The notes under the pieces were generated by a model. It saw only the letters and a list, made by a program, of their open reading frames with translations, had not been told where the DNA came from and ran no database searches. A program made the position numbers and the translations under genes. This document shows positions 6,361-15,184 of a DNA stretch of 64,000 nt, piece after piece (position 1 is the first letter of the stretch; the number at the start of each line of letters is the position of its first letter). The stretch comes from Pseudooceanicola nanhaiensis DSM 18065 (GTDB lineage Bacteria; Pseudomonadota; Alphaproteobacteria; Rhodobacterales; Rhodobacteraceae), in the NCBI RefSeq assembly GCF_000688295.1, contig NZ_JHZF01000011.1, forward strand, positions 1,396,288-1,460,287. Direction: 5' to 3'.

Positions 6361-6684
6361 ATGAACCTGCCCCCCAACGTCACCCCGCGCGCCTTCGAAC
6401 GCCTGGCCGAGATCGGAGCGGGTGCGGATGGCAAGGCGCTCCGCGTGGCCGTCGAGGGCGGCGGCTGCTCGGGCTTCCAGTACGAGATCAAGCTCGACGA
6501 GGTGGCCGAGGACGATCTGGTGCTCGAGGGCGAGGGTCAGAAGGTGGTGGTGGACAGCGTCTCGCTGCCGTTCCTGGCCGGCGCGACCATCGACTTCACC
6601 GAGGAGCTGATCGGCGCGCGTTTCGTGATCGAGAACCCGAACGCCACCAGCTCCTGCGGTTGCGGCACCAGCTTTTCCATGTAG
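6361..6684 (+). CDS. erpA: A-type iron-sulfur cluster carrier (ErpA/IscA family)
   Basis: This 107-residue HesB-like protein binds a [2Fe-2S] or [4Fe-4S] cluster and passes it to apo-enzymes. The three invariant cysteines are present: C36 in GGGCSGF, and C99 and C101 in [10 protein letters not shown] start at the ATG giving [15 protein letters not shown]. The frame is open about 40 codons upstream, but that part overlaps the dgt promoter region and does not resemble the family. The GGGCSGFQY motif and [17 protein letters not shown] region favour ErpA-like proteins over IscA, but family members are hard to separate by sequence alone. It stands alone next to dgt, which is common in this order. 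Confidence 0.9.
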
Positions 6685-6726: not shown

Positions 6727-7641
6727 TCATTCCGCCGGGATGACCGCGGGCCGCGTGACCCGCCGGTCGGCCGCGATACGCTCGTAGACGAGATAGGTGC
6801 CCGAGGCGATGACGATGGCGACGCCGAGGTAGATGTGCCCGCCCGGCACCTCTCCGAAGAAGACCGCGCCCAGGATCACCATCCAGACGAACTGCAGGTT
6901 CATCAGCGGCGTCACCGCGTAGGCCGCGAGCTTCGAGAGCGCGATCACGAGGATCCAGCGGCCCGCGAAGAGCACGCCCGCATAGGCCACGGCCCAGCCG
7001 AAATCGGTGAGCGGCATCGCTTTCCAGACGAAGGGCAGCGCCAGCCCCATGACGAGCGCGAGCGAGAGGTTCGGGTAGAAGACCTGCGCCAGCGTGTTCG
7101 CCTCGTGCCGCCCGATGTAGCGCGACACCACCATCGACAGCGTGCCCGTGGCGCTGGCCGCGAAGGCGATCGCGTGGCCGGTGCCGATCCCGTGCAGCCC
7201 TTCGGGGAAGAGGCACAGCACGCCGACGAAGCCCGCGCCGAGCGCGAACCAGGCCGGCGCGCGCACGTGTTCGCCGAGGATCGGGCCGGAGAGCAGGCCC
7301 GCGAGCAGCGGCACGAGGCCGATGAAGACGAAGACCTCCGCGAAGGGCAGAAGGCGGAAGGCGTAGAAATAGCAGGTGACCGAGACGACGGTCGCCACGG
7401 ACCGGACGGCCATCGCCCGCGGACAGCTGGTGCGGAGCCCCTGCCGGGGCCCGGATTTCACCCGGTCGGCGGTCAGCGCCATGCCGACGACGAGCAGGCC
7501 CGAGACGAAATAGAGCTGCGGCGCGGCGTATCCGCCGGCCAGCAGCTTGGTGATCGCATCCGCGGAAGAGATCAGCAGCGTGTAGACGAGCACCAGCAGG
7601 GTCCCGGTCAGCGCGGCGCTTCGGATCACGGCGGCCCTCAT
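6727..7641 (-). CDS. EamA/DMT-family membrane transporter
   Basis: This 304-residue, strongly hydrophobic protein has about ten membrane segments in two homologous EamA halves, the organisation of drug/metabolite exporters of the DMT superfamily. Features include an N-terminal helix with LVYTLLISSADAITK and a second-half start FAASATGTLSMVVSRYIG. The start ATG overlaps the stop of the upstream 360-residue gene (ATGA), so the two are translationally coupled. The first gene of the same transcript encodes the FSSGS-repeat peptide. The substrate is unknown. From context it may export a product made by this operon, but DMT proteins have very diverse substrates. Confidence 0.85.
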   Translation of the reverse strand: MRAAVIRSAALTGTLLVLVYTLLISSADAITKLLAGGYAAPQLYFVSGLLVVGMALTADRVKSGPRQGLRTSCPRAMAVRSVATVVSVTCYFYAFRLLPFAEVFVFIGLVPLLAGLLSGPILGEHVRAPAWFALGAGFVGVLCLFPEGLHGIGTGHAIAFAASATGTLSMVVSRYIGRHEANTLAQVFYPNLSLALVMGLALPFVWKAMPLTDFGWAVAYAGVLFAGRWILVIALSKLAAYAVTPLMNLQFVWMVILGAVFFGEVPGGHIYLGVAIVIASGTYLVYERIAADRRVTRPAVIPAE

Positions 7642-8720
7642 GCCGGCATCCTCAGCGGCATCGCCTGCCCGGCCCGGGCGAAGCCCGCGAAGAAGCCGTC
7701 GAAATCCGGGCAGGCCGCCTCGGCCTCCTGAAGGACGTCGCGCGCCTCCGCGTCGAGCGCATGTTCGACGGTGCCGCGCATGACGTGCCAGTCGCCCGAG
7801 CGCGCGTCGTCGAGATCGAGCATCAGCTGCGACATCTGGCGCAGCGGCGTGGCGCCGGGCCGGGCGGAATGGAAGCTCATGGGGCCGAAGGGCAGCGGCG
7901 CGGCGAAGCTCTCGGCTCCGGCAAGGGCGCGGGACCAGTTGCAGACGAGGAATTCGTGATAATCGTCGCGGGCGGGCGCCGCGCGGTCGCCTTCCGCGGT
8001 GACGAAACCCGCGGTGTGCCCGGACAGCCATTCGTCCCAGATCATCGGCACGGGGCATGCGGCGAAGCGCAGGGCCACGCAGATCTCGGCCAGCAGGTCG
8101 GCGTTGCGGTCGAGGTAGGCGAGCGTGCCGCCATAGGCCAGGCTGCGCGCGATCTCGGGCCCGAAATCGAAGGGCTGGCGGCCGTATTCGGTCAGGTAGA
8201 AGATCGTGTGGGTCAGCTCGTAGGCGGCCTTCTTGTTCGGCATCGCGAAGGTGGCGGGGCGGGCGATGAAGTGCAGCAGCCGGTCGGTCAGACCCGGGTC
8301 GGCCAGATCGCAGCCGCGGCGGCACATCAGGCGGCGGGCCTCGGCGCGCTGGAGGTCGGAGATCTCGGCCTCGGCCAGGCCCTGCTGCGACGCCCAGTGG
8401 ACGAGCGCCTCTCCCTTGTCGCCAGGCATTCCGAGGTCCTCGAGATCGAGCGTCATCGAGAGCAGGAAGCGGTAGTATTGCGGGAAGAAGGCGAGGCGTT
8501 TCTCGACCTTGTCGTAGAAGGCGGCATAGGCCGCGAGGGCCCGGTCGTCGGGCCCGGCGCCGGTGCTCTCGAAGATGTTCAGCAGCTCGGCGTTTTCCTT
8601 CAGCCAGAAGACATCGTCCTGGCTGCGGCGGTCGGCGGCGAAGCTCGCCGTCAGAGCGGCCAGGCGGTCGGCCCGGCCCCGGGCGCGGGAGGGGAAGGTC
8701 AGGTGAACAACGTTGGTCAT
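7638..8720 (-). CDS. Conserved helical protein of unknown function, partner of the FSSGS-repeat peptide
   Basis: This 360-residue soluble protein is mostly alpha-helical by composition, with no signal peptide or membrane segment. Striking blocks are C133-x3-C137 (LMCRRGCD), ELTHTIFYLTEYGR at 168-181, and DDYHEFLVCNW at 252-262. Further cysteines lie near 214, 222 and 260, and His, Asp and Trp residues are concentrated in these blocks. The LTHxIFYLTxxG pattern resembles helical toroid-type proteins of unknown function, which is a weak impression. It sits 63 bp after the repeat-peptide gene and overlaps the exporter gene by 4 bp. A role in modifying, binding or maturing the peptide is inference from operon order only. 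Confidence 0.75.
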   Translation of the reverse strand: MTNVVHLTFPSRARGRADRLAALTASFAADRRSQDDVFWLKENAELLNIFESTGAGPDDRALAAYAAFYDKVEKRLAFFPQYYRFLLSMTLDLEDLGMPGDKGEALVHWASQQGLAEAEISDLQRAEARRLMCRRGCDLADPGLTDRLLHFIARPATFAMPNKKAAYELTHTIFYLTEYGRQPFDFGPEIARSLAYGGTLAYLDRNADLLAEICVALRFAACPVPMIWDEWLSGHTAGFVTAEGDRAAPARDDYHEFLVCNWSRALAGAESFAAPLPFGPMSFHSARPGATPLRQMSQLMLDLDDARSGDWHVMRGTVEHALDAEARDVLQEAEAACPDFDGFFAGFARAGQAMPLRMPA

Positions 8721-8783
8721 CTCGGGTTTCTCCTTGAATACCGGGCGCTTGCCTGACCGCCCATCTCCGCACCTGGGATCGGC

Positions 8784-9191
8784 TTACGAGCCCGACGAGA
8801 ACATGTGGGTCGCGTCGCCCTCGATCTGCTCGCTCTTCGCCGGAGCGGAGCCCGAGGAGAACATCTCGACCGCATCGCCTGCGATGGAGGCGGTGGCCGT
8901 CGGGGCGCTGCCCGAGGAGAACATCTCGACCGCGTCACCTGCGATGGAGGCGGTGGCCCTCGGGGCGCTGCCCGAGGAGAACATCTCGACCGCATCACCC
9001 ACCAGGGAGGCCGAGGCGGCGGGGGCCGAGCCGGAGGAGAAGAGGCCGGTCACGTCGCCGGTCAGCAGCTCGCCCGATGCAACCGGGGCGGAGCCCGAGG
9101 AGAACATCTCGACCGCGTCGCCGTCGAGCAGGCTGGCCTCGGCCTTGGCGCGGTTTTCGGGGGTGAAGCGGGCTTTGCGAAGAGCAGTCAT
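8784..9191 (-). CDS. Short repeat peptide with six FSSGS modules
   Basis: The gene encodes 135 residues: a basic N-terminal leader of about 22 residues (MTALRKARFTPENRAKAEAS), then six near-identical modules of about 20 residues. Each has the core GDAVEMFSSGSAP. The Phe residues fall at 30, 51, 71, 91, 111 and 131, and the protein ends abruptly at FSSGS in the sixth module. There are no cysteines, signal peptide or membrane segments. The start is fixed by an AAGGA ribosome site upstream of the ATG at 9191; the longer frame to 9374 has no such support. It leads an operon with an unknown helical protein and an EamA exporter. The leader-plus-iterated-core layout is like multi-core modified-peptide precursors, but a structural or binding repeat is equally possible. 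Confidence 0.8.
   Translation of the reverse strand: MTALRKARFTPENRAKAEASLLDGDAVEMFSSGSAPVASGELLTGDVTGLFSSGSAPAASASLVGDAVEMFSSGSAPRATASIAGDAVEMFSSGSAPTATASIAGDAVEMFSSGSAPAKSEQIEGDATHMFSSGS
8787..9125 (-). repeat. Tandem coding repeat, period 60-63 bp, six units
   Basis: The six FSSGS modules are also repeated at DNA level. The first spacing is 63 bp and the next four are 60 bp. The invariant block (forward strand gaggagaacatctcgacc) recurs nearly unchanged, so the array probably grew by recent duplication and may vary in copy number. Confidence 0.9.
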
Positions 9192-9546
9192 TTCCGTGTC
9201 CTTCCAGGTTGCGTTGATGCCAAAACGCTGGCACGGAGCCCGCGGGCCACAAACGGGAATTATCGGTCGACCCTCCGGTTGATTTCGAAACGCCCGTGGC
9301 TCACGATGGGTAAACCACTGGAACTGCGGGGCTTTTCCGGTGTCCAAAAAATGTGTTAACGCGCTTGAAAACAACTCTTGCGCGAAGGATTTCTGACGCC
9401 ATAGCGATACGTCCCTCTCGCCCGCCTGACGCGGACCCGTGACTCGTGGCGAAAGATCGGGGTGCGGAAGCGCGTCAGGACGATTCTCCGGCTGCCCTTG
9501 TCTGTGCCGACGGATTCGGGGATGAGTCGGGGATCAGGAGGCGCCC
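9192..9546. other. Divergent intergenic region between the FSSGS-repeat operon and xthA
   Basis: This is about 355 bp without a credible gene. It should hold promoters for both the minus-strand repeat operon and plus-strand xthA. An AAGGA ribosome site lies just before the ATG at 9191. I see no convincing -35/-10 pair, operator palindrome or riboswitch-like fold. Confidence 0.6.
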
Positions 9547-10329
9547 ATGAAGATCGCGACATTCAACATCAACGGCATCAAGGCCCGGATCGAGGCTCTT
9601 CCGGCGTGGCTGGAAGAGGCGGAGCCCGATGTCGTGGTGCTGCAGGAGATCAAGTCGGTGGACGAGAATTTCCCGCGCGAGGTCTTCGAGGACCTGGGCT
9701 GGATCGTCGAGACGCATGGCCAGAAGAGCTTCAACGGGGTGGCGATCCTGTCGAAACTGCCGCTCGAGGACGTGACCCGCGGCCTGCCCGGCGACGACGA
9801 GGACGAACAGGCCCGCTGGATCGAGGCCACGGTCATGGGCGAACGGACGGCGGTGCGGGTCTGCGGGCTCTACCTGCCGAACGGGAACCCCGCGCCGGGC
9901 CCCAAATACGATTACAAGCTCGCGTGGATGGAGCGGCTCAGGGCGCGGGCCGAGGCGCTGCTGAAAGCCGAGGAACCGGCGCTGATGGCCGGGGATTACA
10001 ACGTCATCCCGCAGGCCGAGGACGCGGCGAAGCCCGAGGCCTGGGTCGAGGACGCGCTGTTCCTGCCGCAGACGCGCGAGGCGTTCCGCCGGATCCTGAA
10101 CCTCGGTTACACCGACGCCTTCCGCGTGCGGGTGCAGGGGCCGGGGCATTATTCCTTCTGGGATTACCAGCGCAATTCCTGGGAACGGAACAACGGCATC
10201 CGCATCGACCATTTCCTGCTGACGCCGCAATGCGCCGACCTGCTGGTCGAGTGCGGCATCGACAAGGAGGTGCGTGGCCGCGACAAGCCCTCGGACCACG
10301 TGCCGGTCTGGGTGGAGCTCGACGCGTGA
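9547..10329 (+). CDS. xthA: Exodeoxyribonuclease III
   Basis: This AP endonuclease / 3'-5' exonuclease takes part in base-excision repair. The 260-residue protein shows the endonuclease/exonuclease/phosphatase fold motifs in order: FNINGIKAR (metal-site Asn), LQEIKS (catalytic Glu at about residue 34), GDYNVIP (Asp/Asn pair), and the C-terminal SDHVPV with catalytic Asp-His. Trp-containing WDYQRNSWERNNGIRIDHFL is also characteristic. Length matches the family. Its stop overlaps the GTG start of the following nucleotidyltransferase gene, so the two are translated from one message. Confidence 0.96.
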   Translation: MKIATFNINGIKARIEALPAWLEEAEPDVVVLQEIKSVDENFPREVFEDLGWIVETHGQKSFNGVAILSKLPLEDVTRGLPGDDEDEQARWIEATVMGERTAVRVCGLYLPNGNPAPGPKYDYKLAWMERLRARAEALLKAEEPALMAGDYNVIPQAEDAAKPEAWVEDALFLPQTREAFRRILNLGYTDAFRVRVQGPGHYSFWDYQRNSWERNNGIRIDHFLLTPQCADLLVECGIDKEVRGRDKPSDHVPVWVELDA

Positions 10330-10926: not shown

Positions 10927-11241
10927 TCAGGCCGAGAGCTTCATCAGCACCAGCCCCGCAAGGATCAGCGCCGCGGCGGCCAGACGGGCCGGCGTGACCG
11001 GATCGCCCAGCACGACAATCCCCACGACAAACGCGCCGAGCGCGCCGATCCCCGTCCAGATCGCGTAGGCCGTGCCGAGCGGCAGGCGCTGCATCGCGAC
11101 GGAGAGCAGGGCGAAACTGCCGATCATGGTGAGGAAGGTGATGGCCGTGGGAAACAGCCGCGTGAACCCCTGCGATTGTTTCATGCTGAAGGCCCAGACG
11201 ATTTCGAGAAGACCGGCGAGAAGAAGACAGACCCAGGGCAT
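10927..11241 (-). CDS. gdx: Gdx/SugE-type guanidinium exporter (small multidrug resistance family)
   Basis: This four-helix SMR protein of 104 residues exports guanidinium in exchange for protons as an antiparallel dimer. The essential membrane Glu is E13 in LLAGLLEIVWAFSMK. The GTAYAIWTGIGALG block and the QSQGFTRLFP loop are typical of the SugE/Gdx branch rather than EmrE. I start at the ATG at 11241 (MPWVCLLL), which has a GGAG ribosome site 6 bases upstream; the frame extends further upstream but that part is the riboswitch. A two-hairpin guanidine-II riboswitch immediately precedes it, which supports the guanidinium assignment. Confidence 0.92.
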   Translation of the reverse strand: MPWVCLLLAGLLEIVWAFSMKQSQGFTRLFPTAITFLTMIGSFALLSVAMQRLPLGTAYAIWTGIGALGAFVVGIVVLGDPVTPARLAAAALILAGLVLMKLSA

Positions 11242-11261
11242 GACGCGCTCCGACGTGTATG

Positions 11262-11310
11262 TCAGGCCGTCCTGATCGTGCTGTACCCGGTGCGGGGGTG
11301 GTCGTCCACC
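11262..11310 (-). promoter_or_regulatory. Guanidine-II (mini-ykkC) riboswitch upstream of gdx
   Basis: On the minus strand two perfect 5-bp hairpins occur in tandem: GGTGG-ACGA-CCACC (11310-11297) and, after a 21-nt spacer, TCAGG-ACGG-CCTGA (11275-11262). Both have the ACGR tetraloop closed by GG/CC pairs that defines guanidine-II riboswitches. The second hairpin ends 20 nt before the gdx start and about 10 nt before its ribosome site, consistent with translational control. The regulated gene is the classic target of this class. Confidence 0.9.
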
Positions 11311-11365
11311 TCGGCCAGAGGTAGACCCGCACGCCGTGCCGGGCAAGCGTCCTGCCGAAATACAA

Positions 11366-11433
11366 TCAGGGCACGACCCGGCTGGATGCGGCCCGGACGC
11401 AAAGCGCCGGACCTGTTCCGGATCGTGCCCTGA
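11366..11433. repeat. Inverted repeat, 11-bp perfect arms around 46 bp
   Basis: The arms tcagggcacga (11366-11376) and tcgtgccctga (11423-11433) are perfect inverted copies. The enclosed segment has further GC-rich self-complementarity. It lies between the RTX gene end and the gdx riboswitch. It might be a transcript stem-loop or a short palindromic repeat; I cannot assign it. Confidence 0.55.
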
Positions 11434-11478
11434 AGGCTTGGCCAAGCTCAGCCCCCGCTAGTCTTGGCCGGGGGGTCC

Positions 11479-11509: not shown

Positions 11510-14278
11510 TCACTCGGCCAGAAGCCGTGCTTCGTGTTTCTTCAGCGTCCGGCGTGCCGCGTGGTAGTCGCGGATGCCGTTCGAGGTCTTCAGCTCGGGG
11601 AAGAGTTCGTAGATCTCGTTCCGCTGCGCGTTGCCGACACCTTCCAGCGACAATTCGCCGGGCTGGAAGCTCTCGGTCCATGCGCCGTCCGACAGGACCA
11701 CTTCGTGGCGGTCGAACATGAAGTGGATGTAGGTGGTGTGCATCGCGTTCACCACGTCCACCCCCGGCAGGCCGGTCAGGTGCTTGGCGGCCACGAGAAC
11801 CTCGCGCTCCTCGAAGTAGAGCATCGTCTTCTCGTTGTTCACCAGGACCCGGTGGTTCGGCGAGACCAGCATGTCACGTTCGGGCAGACCGTGGCCGAGC
11901 GCACCCTTCTGGATCAGCACCGGCTTCAGGTGATCGTTCGCCGCCAGGACACGACCGTCGATCGGCTTCGCACCCATCCAGCGGATCTCCTGGATGCCGT
12001 TGTCGCGGGTGATGATCCGGTCGCCGACCGAGAGCTCCTCGACCTTGCGTTCGCCCTTGGGCGTCGCGATCAGCGAGCCGGGGGTGAAGCAGGGCACGAT
12101 CTGCTCGATGTTGTAGAAGTCGAGCGAGCCGGTGACCTTGCCCTCGCCGTCGAGGAATTCGACGGTGCCGTCGATCCCGTTCGACGGACGGTCGCCGTCG
12201 TCGTCGTCACGGACGTTGACCAGCCGGAAGTTGCCCTTGCCGACCGCGCTCAGGTCCAGCGTGTCCCAGTCGTCGCCGCCCGCGTTGCCGTGGACATAAT
12301 CGCCCGCGCCTTCCTCGGCGCTGCCGACGAGGAACAGGTCGCGGTCGTCGCCGCCTTCGAGGTGGTCGACACCGGCGCCGCCGTCGATCGTGTCGTTGCC
12401 CTCGTCGCCCTGGATGCTGTCGTGGCCTTCGCCGCCATACAGCTCGTCGGCGTCGAGACCGCCGTGCAGCTCGTCATTGCCCGCGTCGCCGTAGAGCGTG
12501 TCGGCATCGTCCTCGCCGAGGATCGTGTCGTTGCCGTCGCCGCCGTGCACGAGGTCGCGGCCGTTGTCGGGATGCGCCTCGGTGGCGTCGTCGCCATAGC
12601 CCCACTGAAGGTCCGGGTCGCCGGCGTTGATGTGGTCGTTGCCCGCGCCGCCGTGGATCGTGTCGGAGCCGTGGCCGCCGGTGATGACGTCGTCGCCCTC
12701 GCCGCCTTCGACGAGATCGTCGTCGATGCCCGCGTGGATCGTGTCGTTGCCGGTGCCGCCGTAGATCGTGTCGGCATCGTCGCCGGTCATGATGACGTCG
12801 TTGCCCGCGCCGCCGTCGACCCAGTCCTTGTTGTCGTCCTTGACCGGGTCCGAGCCGTAGCCGAGCCGCACCGCGTTCGGATCGTCGCCCTCGTAATCCG
12901 AGAAGACGTCGATGCCGGCGATGATGGTGTCGTTGCCCTCGCCGCCGTAGATCGTGTCGGAGCCCTGATCGTCGTTGATGTAATCGTTGCCGTCGCCCGC
13001 GTCGATCCAGTCGTCGTCGATGCCGCCGTTGATGCTGTCCTCGCCCGCGCCGCCGTAGATCGTGTCGCGGTCGTCGCCGGTGGTGATCGTGTCGTTGCCG
13101 GCGCCGCCGTCGACGTAGTCACGATCGTCTTCCTTGTCCGCGTCCTCGGTGAAGACGGGCAGCGGGTTGTCGAAGGCCGGGCTCTTGCCGGAGGTGTCGA
13201 TCTTGTCGTCGCCGTCGTCGCCGTGAACCGTATCGGACCCGTCTCCGCCGGTGATCGAATCGTCGCCACCGCCGCCATGGATGACGTCGTCACCCTCGCC
13301 GCCGTGCAGCGTGTCGTTGCCCGGGGTGGTGTCCTCGCCGTCGAAGACGGTCGGGGTGAAGTAGATGTCGGTGATGTTGACTTCGGAGATGTGCCAGCCG
13401 TTCTGCTCGTGCGTGATCGTGAAATACGCCACGTTCGCGGGCATGGTCACGAGCGCCGAGGTGGAGGCGGCGTCCTTGTCCAGATCGACGCGGCCGTTGG
13501 CTTCGAACATGACGTTGCCGTCCGCGCCGTTCACGTCGTGGCCGTTGATGTCCCCGCCGAGCTCGACGCAGATCTCGGTCGGCTGGCCGTCGGCATCGAA
13601 GGCATGGATCGTGATCTTCGAGTTCTGGTCGATGTCGTTGATGCGGAACGACACATCGGTGACCGGCTTGTCGAAGCTCCACTTGTAGGTGGCCTTCTCG
13701 TGGTCCTCGGTCATGCGGGATTCACCCGAGGACATCGTGTCGACCGGACCCAGGTTGCCGGCATCGATGCCGTCAACGTTCTGTTCGTCGGTGGCGAAGC
13801 GGGTCAGCGGGGTGTGCTTGGTCTCGATCGTCTCGAAGGTGACGTTCACATTGCCGGTGTCCTGCGAGAGCACGCCGCCCAGCGGGTCGTTGTTGTCGAT
13901 CGGATCGGCGCCGTTCGGGTCGGGCAGCTTGTCCCATTCGAAGACTTCGCGGGGCGCCTCGTCGGTCGTGCCCAGCGTGCCGTCGCCGTAGATGACGTCG
14001 TTCCCGGCGCCGCCGTCCACGCTGTCGTCGCCCGACCCGGCATAGACCGTGTCGTTGCCGTTCAGCGAATGGATCGTGTCGTCGCCCGCCCCGGCATCGA
14101 CCGTGTCGTCATCGCCGTCGGTGCCGTCGATCTGGTCGCCATCCTTGTCCACATAGCCCTGGCCCATCGTGTCGGCCCCGGTGGTGCCGGAGACAATGCC
14201 GTCGCTCACGGTCGGATCCTTGTCGTCAGGACCACAGTCGGAACCCTTGCCGAAGTACTTGCTGAAGTAGAACGTCAT
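11510..14278 (-). CDS. Large secreted RTX calcium-binding protein with C-terminal Hint domain
   Basis: This acidic protein of 922 residues has no N-terminal signal peptide. It contains a short RTX block (about residues 40-100), a beta-sandwich-like region rich in Asp/Asn (about 105-320), a long array of GGxGxDxx/GDDxDTIYGG nonapeptides (about 320-660) and a Hint (hedgehog/intein) domain from C730 (CFTPGSLIATPKG) with the internal SPNHRVLV His motif. RTX repeats bind calcium and fold after type I secretion, and Hint modules often sit at the C-terminus of such proteins in this order. I start at the ATG giving MTFYFSKYF. Hint auto-processing is possible but unproven. No type I secretion genes are nearby. 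Confidence 0.88.
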   Translation of the reverse strand: MTFYFSKYFGKGSDCGPDDKDPTVSDGIVSGTTGADTMGQGYVDKDGDQIDGTDGDDDTVDAGAGDDTIHSLNGNDTVYAGSGDDSVDGGAGNDVIYGDGTLGTTDEAPREVFEWDKLPDPNGADPIDNNDPLGGVLSQDTGNVNVTFETIETKHTPLTRFATDEQNVDGIDAGNLGPVDTMSSGESRMTEDHEKATYKWSFDKPVTDVSFRINDIDQNSKITIHAFDADGQPTEICVELGGDINGHDVNGADGNVMFEANGRVDLDKDAASTSALVTMPANVAYFTITHEQNGWHISEVNITDIYFTPTVFDGEDTTPGNDTLHGGEGDDVIHGGGGDDSITGGDGSDTVHGDDGDDKIDTSGKSPAFDNPLPVFTEDADKEDDRDYVDGGAGNDTITTGDDRDTIYGGAGEDSINGGIDDDWIDAGDGNDYINDDQGSDTIYGGEGNDTIIAGIDVFSDYEGDDPNAVRLGYGSDPVKDDNKDWVDGGAGNDVIMTGDDADTIYGGTGNDTIHAGIDDDLVEGGEGDDVITGGHGSDTIHGGAGNDHINAGDPDLQWGYGDDATEAHPDNGRDLVHGGDGNDTILGEDDADTLYGDAGNDELHGGLDADELYGGEGHDSIQGDEGNDTIDGGAGVDHLEGGDDRDLFLVGSAEEGAGDYVHGNAGGDDWDTLDLSAVGKGNFRLVNVRDDDDGDRPSNGIDGTVEFLDGEGKVTGSLDFYNIEQIVPCFTPGSLIATPKGERKVEELSVGDRIITRDNGIQEIRWMGAKPIDGRVLAANDHLKPVLIQKGALGHGLPERDMLVSPNHRVLVNNEKTMLYFEEREVLVAAKHLTGLPGVDVVNAMHTTYIHFMFDRHEVVLSDGAWTESFQPGELSLEGVGNAQRNEIYELFPELKTSNGIRDYHAARRTLKKHEARLLAE

Positions 14279-15184
14279 TTCAGTTACCCTTTGTGCCTTC
14301 AGAACCCGGCGGTTCCTTGGTTGTTGCGGCCCCGGCCCGCTTCCGCGACGCCGGATCGTTGTCTCCCAGGATGAGGTACCGTCGAGCGGCTCTGCGCGGC
14401 CGGGCCTTCGGGACACGGGGTCCTTCGGGCAATCGTGTTCAGGCCCGGTTCCGGCTGGAACAGGTCACCTGACCGATCGGCAGGTCTCGCATCGCTCCGG
14501 ATGCCTCATCTTCGGATGGCCGCCCCCGTGGCCAGCAGTCTTCGCCCCCCAGTCGGGCACCATCGGTTTACCGACGGAAATGCGGCAGACAAAGCGGAAA
14601 AAGACCAAAAGGTGGCAAAGTAAGGTCACGAGAGCGCATCATCTGCCACAATTCGGCCCCACTTCAACAACCTATGGATGAGGCAGGTTTCCTGTACGTG
14701 AACACTCGCATGGCGTGTGTGGCAGATATCGCCTTATTATATTGACCATTTGAAATGTTTTGACACCGAGGGCCGCCAAAGCAGTTTCGCCCAGGGAAAC
14801 GATGCCGCCCGATTTCGACGCGACACAATTGGGCGGGACAAATGTGAAGCGGCCGCAAACATCTGTTTTACGGCACGAACCAATCCCGCTTTTTTCCGGC
14901 AATGAGCGTTTTTCGAGAACAATGACGCGTCCTCCGCGCCCAATTCTGGCCGAATCAAGGCAGGTCAACTGACCTGAAACGGCCGCGCGTGATTCCGCCG
15001 AGCCTTGGGCCAATGCCGGCTGACCCCCGTTCAAATTTAATGACGTGAGAAAAGTTAACCTTGGAACAAGAAGGTAAACGACGGGTTTAGGCTGCATCCG
15101 GGGTCGATCAAATGGCCGTTACGCACCTGTGTGCAAGGCGGCTCTTGGATCATCCCTCAACGTTCCTGTCATGAGGAGGTGGGC
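14279..15184. other. Long intergenic region with AT-rich core
   Basis: This is about 900 bp with no reading frame that looks coding. It is less GC-rich than its surroundings, especially 14690-14770. A perfect TATAAT on the minus strand (14741-14736), with a poor -35, could be the RTX-Hint promoter with a leader of about 450 nt. The right end holds the candidate GGAAC-type promoter at 15063 and a strong GAGGAGG ribosome site before 15185. Confidence 0.5.
15063..15087 (+). promoter_or_regulatory. Candidate general-stress (EcfG-type) sigma promoter
   Basis: GGAAC (15063-15067), a 16-bp spacer and GGTT (15084-15087) form a one-mismatch version of the alphaproteobacterial general-stress promoter GGAAC-N16/17-CGTT. 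It lies about 100 bp before the envelope-stress trio. A similar element precedes the oxidoreductase gene at 27355. Confidence 0.4.

Follow-up and report, generated by a model that had tools for sequence, protein, structure and literature searches.

The title of Shi et al. (ACS Catal. 2026, cited in PMC13352647) announces an epimerase of the DUF6895 family that takes part in the modification of lasso peptides. Here, we describe a locus related to this family in a 64,000-nt stretch of the Pseudooceanicola nanhaiensis DSM 18065 genome (contig NZ_JHZF01000011.1, positions 1,396,288 to 1,460,287; this whole stretch is called the window below), in which a gene for a repetitive peptide is followed by genes for a DUF6902 protein and a transporter. 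Judging from the genes and their sequences, we slightly favor the reading that this is a minimal multi-core system of the ribosomally synthesized and post-translationally modified peptide (RiPP) type, in which DUF6902 would epimerize each core and one pentapeptide would be made per genome. DUF6902 and DUF6895 are homologous and share motifs; DUF6902 proteins differ in being longer, in forming a Pfam family of their own, in lacking adjoining lasso genes, and in having a repeat precursor as partner. While RiPPs, multi-core precursors, and RiPP epimerases are already known kinds, the pairing of DUF6902 with a repeat peptide, the repertoire of 40 words that the core can take, and the uniformity of the cores across each gene are new.

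MslH, the epimerase of the lasso peptide MS-271, uses two His/Asp pairs in acid/base catalysis (PMC10406935). DUF6902 also has two conserved histidines together with conserved Asp/Glu residues, whereas the fold of MslH is calcineurin-like, with Ca(II), and DUF6902 is predicted to be all-helical; no homology between the two is indicated, and any likeness would be convergent. In the microviridin case, the multi-core precursor AMdnA is modified by AMdnC, an ATP-grasp ligase acting on three cores (PMC5934393). The system of the window resembles it in combining one precursor, several cores, and one putative enzyme, and differs in its 3 to 20 pentapeptide modules and in a protein unrelated to AMdnC. 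Fungal repeat proteins processed by Kex2, including alpha-factor-type pheromones, are likewise tandem repeats with a core that is highly diverse between species, and a subset of them is accompanied by a modifying protein of a DUF family (PMC7329392). These fungal precursors carry a secretory signal peptide and Kex2 sites, whereas inspection of the bacterial precursor of the window, which shows no homology to them, revealed neither a hydrophobic N-terminal stretch that could serve as secretory signal nor dibasic pairs between the cores. In the literature that was searched for DUF6902 and DUF6895, DUF6895 appeared only in the title of a cited reference and no published work on DUF6902 was found, none of the papers searched for combined FSSGS with RiPPs, and searches for lasso epimerases, RiPPs of Rhodobacteraceae or Roseobacter, and multi-core precursors gave listings without a description of this system.

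A repeat precursor paired with DUF6902

The preliminary description, made from the sequence of the window alone, had proposed a three-gene operon of a 135-residue protein with six FSSGS modules, a 360-residue protein, and an exporter overlapping the latter by 4 bp. The coordinates bear this out and place the operon on the minus strand, which had not been named. First comes the precursor gene (8784-9191, 135 aa plus TAA), then that of DUF6902 (7638-8720, 360 aa), and last that of the EamA/DMT-family transporter (6727-7641, overlapping the DUF6902 gene at 7638-7641); these three are the only genes between a HesB-like gene of Fe-S biosynthesis (6361-6684) and an exonuclease III-like gene (xth, 9547-10329). 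Genes for a lasso leader peptidase or a lasso cyclase were not found in this interval.

The precursor begins with MTALRKARFTPENRAKAEASLLD and terminates with the end of its sixth core. A basic, leader-like stretch starting with MTALRK (residues 1-22, 9126-9191, minus strand; putative boundary) precedes six modules of the form G[DE]xxxx-FSSGS-AP, and an M-x-A-x-x-K start is common to the 17 aligned precursors. The cores begin at residues 30, 51, 71, 91, 111, and 131 and are encoded on the minus strand at 9090-9104 (core 1, residues 30-34), 9027-9041 (core 2, residues 51-55), 8967-8981 (core 3, residues 71-75), 8907-8921 (core 4, residues 91-95), 8847-8861 (core 5, residues 111-115), and 8787-8801 (core 6, residues 131-135, abutting the stop codon), all six reading FSSGS. 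Tandem Repeats Finder detected a 60-bp array in the gene (best row score 279, 95% matches). With the leader taken to end at the putative boundary, the gene encodes what is expected of a RiPP, a ribosomal precursor of leader and repeated cores. PADLOC gave no match, NCBIfam matched neither the precursor nor the DUF6902 protein, and the one PHROGs match of the repeat peptide was weak (E = 0.006) and was judged a low-complexity chance hit.

The earlier claim that no known maturase resembles the 360-residue protein holds for the maturases named then; the protein does have a home in Pfam, namely DUF6902 (PF21843; E = 2.9e-150, 500.5 bits against a cut-off of 27, residues 1-350). The same protein also passes the cut-off of DUF6895 (PF21836; E = 3.1e-23, 83 bits against 23.8, residues 26-257). 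Judged from these profile matches, DUF6902 is by far the better fit and the DUF6895 match reflects kinship. A profile comparison of 56 DUF6902 with 6 DUF6895 proteins gave a probability of 96.6 (E = 5.9e-10) over DUF6902 residues 74-263. Residues Y167, T170-H171, F174, E178, G180, D208-L209, E212, and H255 of the window protein align with positions that are the same in all six DUF6895 proteins, E178 as a D/E exchange, so that the two families have the motifs Y-x-x-TH-x-x-F, D/E-x-G, DL-x-x-E, and a further H in common; D271 of DUF6895 has no clear counterpart in DUF6902. His171 of the ELTH motif (codon 8208-8210, minus strand) is present in 96 of the 98 aligned DUF6902 proteins and His255 of the DDYH motif (codon 7956-7958, minus strand) in 97, each aligning with an invariant histidine of DUF6895. 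A structure prediction, one of the checks proposed earlier, confidently gave a nearly all-helical fold of the alpha/alpha-toroid kind (pLDDT 93.1). Searches of solved structures by sequence yielded nothing better than E = 0.25 (protein) and 0.52 (profile), and no LanC-like or other RiPP toroid enzyme was among the 50 fold matches listed.

The repeat precursor and DUF6902 occur together. DUF6902 is present in 20 of the 22 genomes of the genus, and a repeat precursor adjoins it at all 20 of these loci. Among 295 genomes of the family, 82 contain DUF6902, and a precursor profile built from 17 sequences matched 76 genomes, all of them (76/76) within these 82. There was no match in the 213 genomes without DUF6902 (Fisher P = 5e-64), although at most 16 or 17 first-look candidates were scored per genome and a weak precursor without DUF6902 could have escaped. 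Three of the six DUF6902 genomes without profile match have short divergent precursors that are visible by eye (YIAGL, MMSCS, and LSPSC types). In the remaining three, the locus either lies at a contig edge (L111) or has no findable precursor (L093 and L110). The enzymes of L093 and L110 are the only two of the 98 aligned DUF6902 proteins without His171; L110 additionally lacks His255, Asp208, and Glu212, and L093 lacks Asp208. These two frames are decayed or repurposed copies. In 289 genomes of the class, DUF6902 scored above the cut-off only in the family of the window, and it did so together with the precursor profile in the same three genomes. Finally, named loci were fetched by DUF6902 alone; the 80 kept are the best of 343 relatives and hence closely related. 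In every one of these 80, a repeat precursor is encoded upstream of DUF6902, at a distance of about 40 to 350 nt.

This co-occurrence rules out a chance repeat, and that precursor and DUF6902 form a pair is well supported. The preliminary description had expected homologs of the 360-residue protein to accompany repeats of variable copy number, which is the case (3 to 20 modules), and had named homologs regularly found without a repeat peptide as evidence to the contrary, a pattern that was not found. Its suggestion of a multi-core pathway thereby gains from the restriction of the precursor profile to DUF6902 genomes, from the variable copy number, and from the kinship with DUF6895, while the exporter, part of the architecture it described, is not a constant feature (see below). 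As a separate observation, a stop codon lies within the DUF6902 stretch of an uncultured Shimia (L132, 4001-5062), where the upstream repeat precursor is retained.

Cores are uniform within genes and variable between species

The 140 distinct precursors that have three or more modules (median 8 modules, range 3 to 20) contain 40 core forms. The most common were FSSGS (34 precursors), FTSGS (25), FTSWS (12), FTSGL (11), and FASGS (6). Position 1 is nearly always F, and 138 of the 140 precursors have S, T, or C at position 3, with positions 2, 4, and 5 being variable. Left out of the core counts were L080 (a DUF6895 locus), L093 and L110 (no precursor), L111 (contig edge), and L088, L099, L103, and L109, for which automatic core finding failed or returned a false core and precursors are visible by eye. 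The protein ends with the last core residue in 106 of 144 precursors, and most Trp-type cores are followed by a short tail after the last copy.

A first count of uniformity selected modules by their likeness to the commonest core and was thus biased toward uniformity. It was redone with the framework only (G-x5-F-x5-P, at least three modules, core letters unused), a scan that omitted 30 of the 144 distinct precursors. A single core was present throughout in 112 of the 114 precursors scanned (773 modules), and pairs of modules within a gene were identical at core positions 2-5 in 99.6 to 100% of cases. Between precursors, the same four positions agreed in only 36, 84, 45, and 59%, and the linkers agreed within genes in only 33 to 41%. 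Recent tandem copying as the sole cause of the uniform cores is insufficient, given that synonymous divergence is similar in cores and linkers (0.52 versus 0.58). Since the synonymous sites of the core diverge (pS 0.52) and the nonsynonymous sites do not (pN 0.051; pN/pS 0.10, compared to 0.84 in the linkers), selection, in addition to any recent copying, keeps the core copies alike. The word itself has nevertheless been replaced many times: a DUF6902 tree of 95 rows requires at least 50 changes of core, a rough count because 36 of the 92 inner branches of the tree are open. By its sequence pattern, the core looks less like part of a scaffold than like a product of about five residues that is released. 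Several precursors (L073, L086, L087, L088, L139, and L189) mix two core words and may represent transitional stages between core types.

Proposed function and alternative explanations

DUF6902 is likely a core-modifying enzyme, as far as can be judged from its sequence and that of its partner. Epimerization is proposed as its most probable reaction because of the kinship with DUF6895 and the two conserved histidines and D/E residues, and we regard this particular reaction as a tentative assignment. In the mechanism we infer, a cytoplasmic precursor consisting of a short basic leader and pentapeptide copies embedded in a framework that stays constant (G-D/E-x-x-x-x ahead of the core, A/G-P behind it) would be brought to DUF6902 by its leader or by the framework. 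The enzyme would then act on the core of each module, converting one core residue to the D form by a cofactor-light acid/base epimerization. An unlinked protease would cut the modified precursor and so release one and the same pentapeptide several times over. Export of the pentapeptide may be through EamA, or through another transporter where EamA is missing.

EamA/DMT proteins generally transport small metabolites. The transporter of the window matches EamA (PF00892) with 52.5 bits against a cut-off of 28.2, and an EamA homolog follows DUF6902 in 63 of the 80 named loci, or in 63 of 78 when two further loci at a contig edge are set aside. The exporter is therefore common but optional. In Marivita cryptomonadis (L144), for example, a HesB-like gene comes directly after DUF6902.

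Several observations weigh against the proposed mechanism. Its modification and cleavage steps, its product, and any activity are all predictions. The kinship argument relies on the title of the paper on the DUF6895 epimerase, and the alpha/alpha toroid is a common fold that says nothing of function. EamA is missing in 15 of the 78 loci with enough flanking DNA. No protease gene is linked, as the interval from HesB to xth holds the three genes only. The mixed-core precursors listed above depart from the rule of one core per gene. A screen of the enzyme for positions covarying with the core word (3255 tests) had few independent pairs and no valid P-value ranking and allowed no conclusion. An attenuator hairpin between precursor and enzyme gene found no support either in the window (z = -0.39) or across the 79 named loci that were scored (average z = -0.59, with 10% of the loci below -2).

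Residues S, T, and C are often modified in RiPPs. The same substrate-enzyme pair could thus perform other chemistry, such as dehydration, acylation, oxidation, or cross-linking, on the S/T/C-rich core, with DUF6895 and DUF6902 having diverged in their reaction. We consider this unlikely, though it deserves to be taken seriously: the near-constant S, T, or C at core position 3 fits it, only residues 74-263 of DUF6902 align with DUF6895, and many invariant residues are private to DUF6902. Nevertheless, the shared histidine and D/E motifs are the best conserved part of both families, which favors a common catalysis. It is more doubtful still that the repeat protein is structural or a scaffold, with DUF6902 as its noncatalytic, repeat-binding partner. 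Multivalent repeats are typical of scaffolds, and neither a product nor a linked protease speaks for release; yet a scaffold would have no need for only the five core residues to be fixed within a gene while the linkers drift, nor for the cores of all modules to change together between species. Moreover, the kin family DUF6895 is reported as an enzyme, at least by title, and in the two DUF6902 proteins that have decayed, the putative catalytic histidine was the first to be lost.

The least probable of the alternatives, and in our view a very improbable one, is that the peptide serves as a carrier on whose core a small molecule is built or altered before export by EamA, following a pearlin-like logic. 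The adjacency of EamA in most loci and the usual substrates of EamA/DMT proteins agree with such a role. Against it, constancy within genes and variation between species concern the whole pentapeptide rather than a single residue, and no ligase-like gene is linked.

If the multi-core epimerization reading is correct, it would provide a function for two domains of unknown function and define a RiPP family of uncommon architecture, with two or three genes and up to about 20 identical pentapeptide cores. The roughly 40 cores with their cognate enzymes would form a natural series for studies of specificity, and the pentapeptides would be small-peptide products that are widespread in marine bacteria of the Roseobacter group and have escaped notice until now, given DUF6902 in 82 of the 295 family genomes. 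The many-copy, species-specific words recall pheromone and neuropeptide precursors, such as those of yeast alpha-factor and of animal neuropeptides. By this analogy we speculate, with little confidence, that the products might be species-specific pentapeptide signals ("pherotypes"), made from 3 to 20 identical copies per precursor and rendered protease-resistant by a D residue that DUF6902, as a toroid-fold epimerase, would introduce into each core. The repeated switching of whole core sets could then, just as speculatively, reflect selection that favored private communication or self/non-self recognition.

DUF6895 loci and neighboring genes

Five DUF6895 loci were inspected, including four of the five plasmid records with DUF6895. 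They belong to Streptomyces fungicidicus, Kitasatospora fiedleri, Cupriavidus oxalaticus, Pseudalkalibacillus hwajinpoensis, and an alphaproteobacterium. Short ORFs lie upstream of DUF6895 in all five, directly in two and one gene further in three, in a tally made without a background control; these ORFs are putative precursors. Those heading the actinobacterial DUF6895 operons (L112, 5611-5799, and L227, 4950-5156) resemble each other by eye in their C-terminal part (GG...LLLSP), and a serine hydrolase is encoded downstream in both operons. To the eye, the N-terminal halves also suggest a relationship between the short ORF upstream of DUF6895 in the Bacillota plasmid (L228, 5587-5847) and one of 78 residues that precedes DUF6895 in the alphaproteobacterial locus (L080). 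In Cupriavidus oxalaticus (L226, plasmid NZ_CP038636.1, 1-6789), a lantibiotic dehydratase (Lant_dehydr_N, E = 2.4e-136) is encoded about 2.2 kb from DUF6895. The dehydratase and a cupin lie on the strand opposite to DUF6895, about 2 kb off, and a 125-residue ORF of the same locus has Cys in its C-terminal part. This locus is possibly an unrecognized RiPP cluster.

In the window itself, a single sigma-70-like promoter match was found upstream of the precursor gene (9259-9288, minus strand; 0.1 expected from shuffles). Beyond xth, the minus strand encodes a protein of 968 residues that combines RTX calcium-binding nonapeptide repeats with a Hint_2 domain at its C-terminus (11510-14416), as well as a small multidrug resistance (SMR) protein (10927-11442; Pfam Multi_Drug_Res, E = 1.7e-26), the start of whose ORF is apparently set too far upstream.

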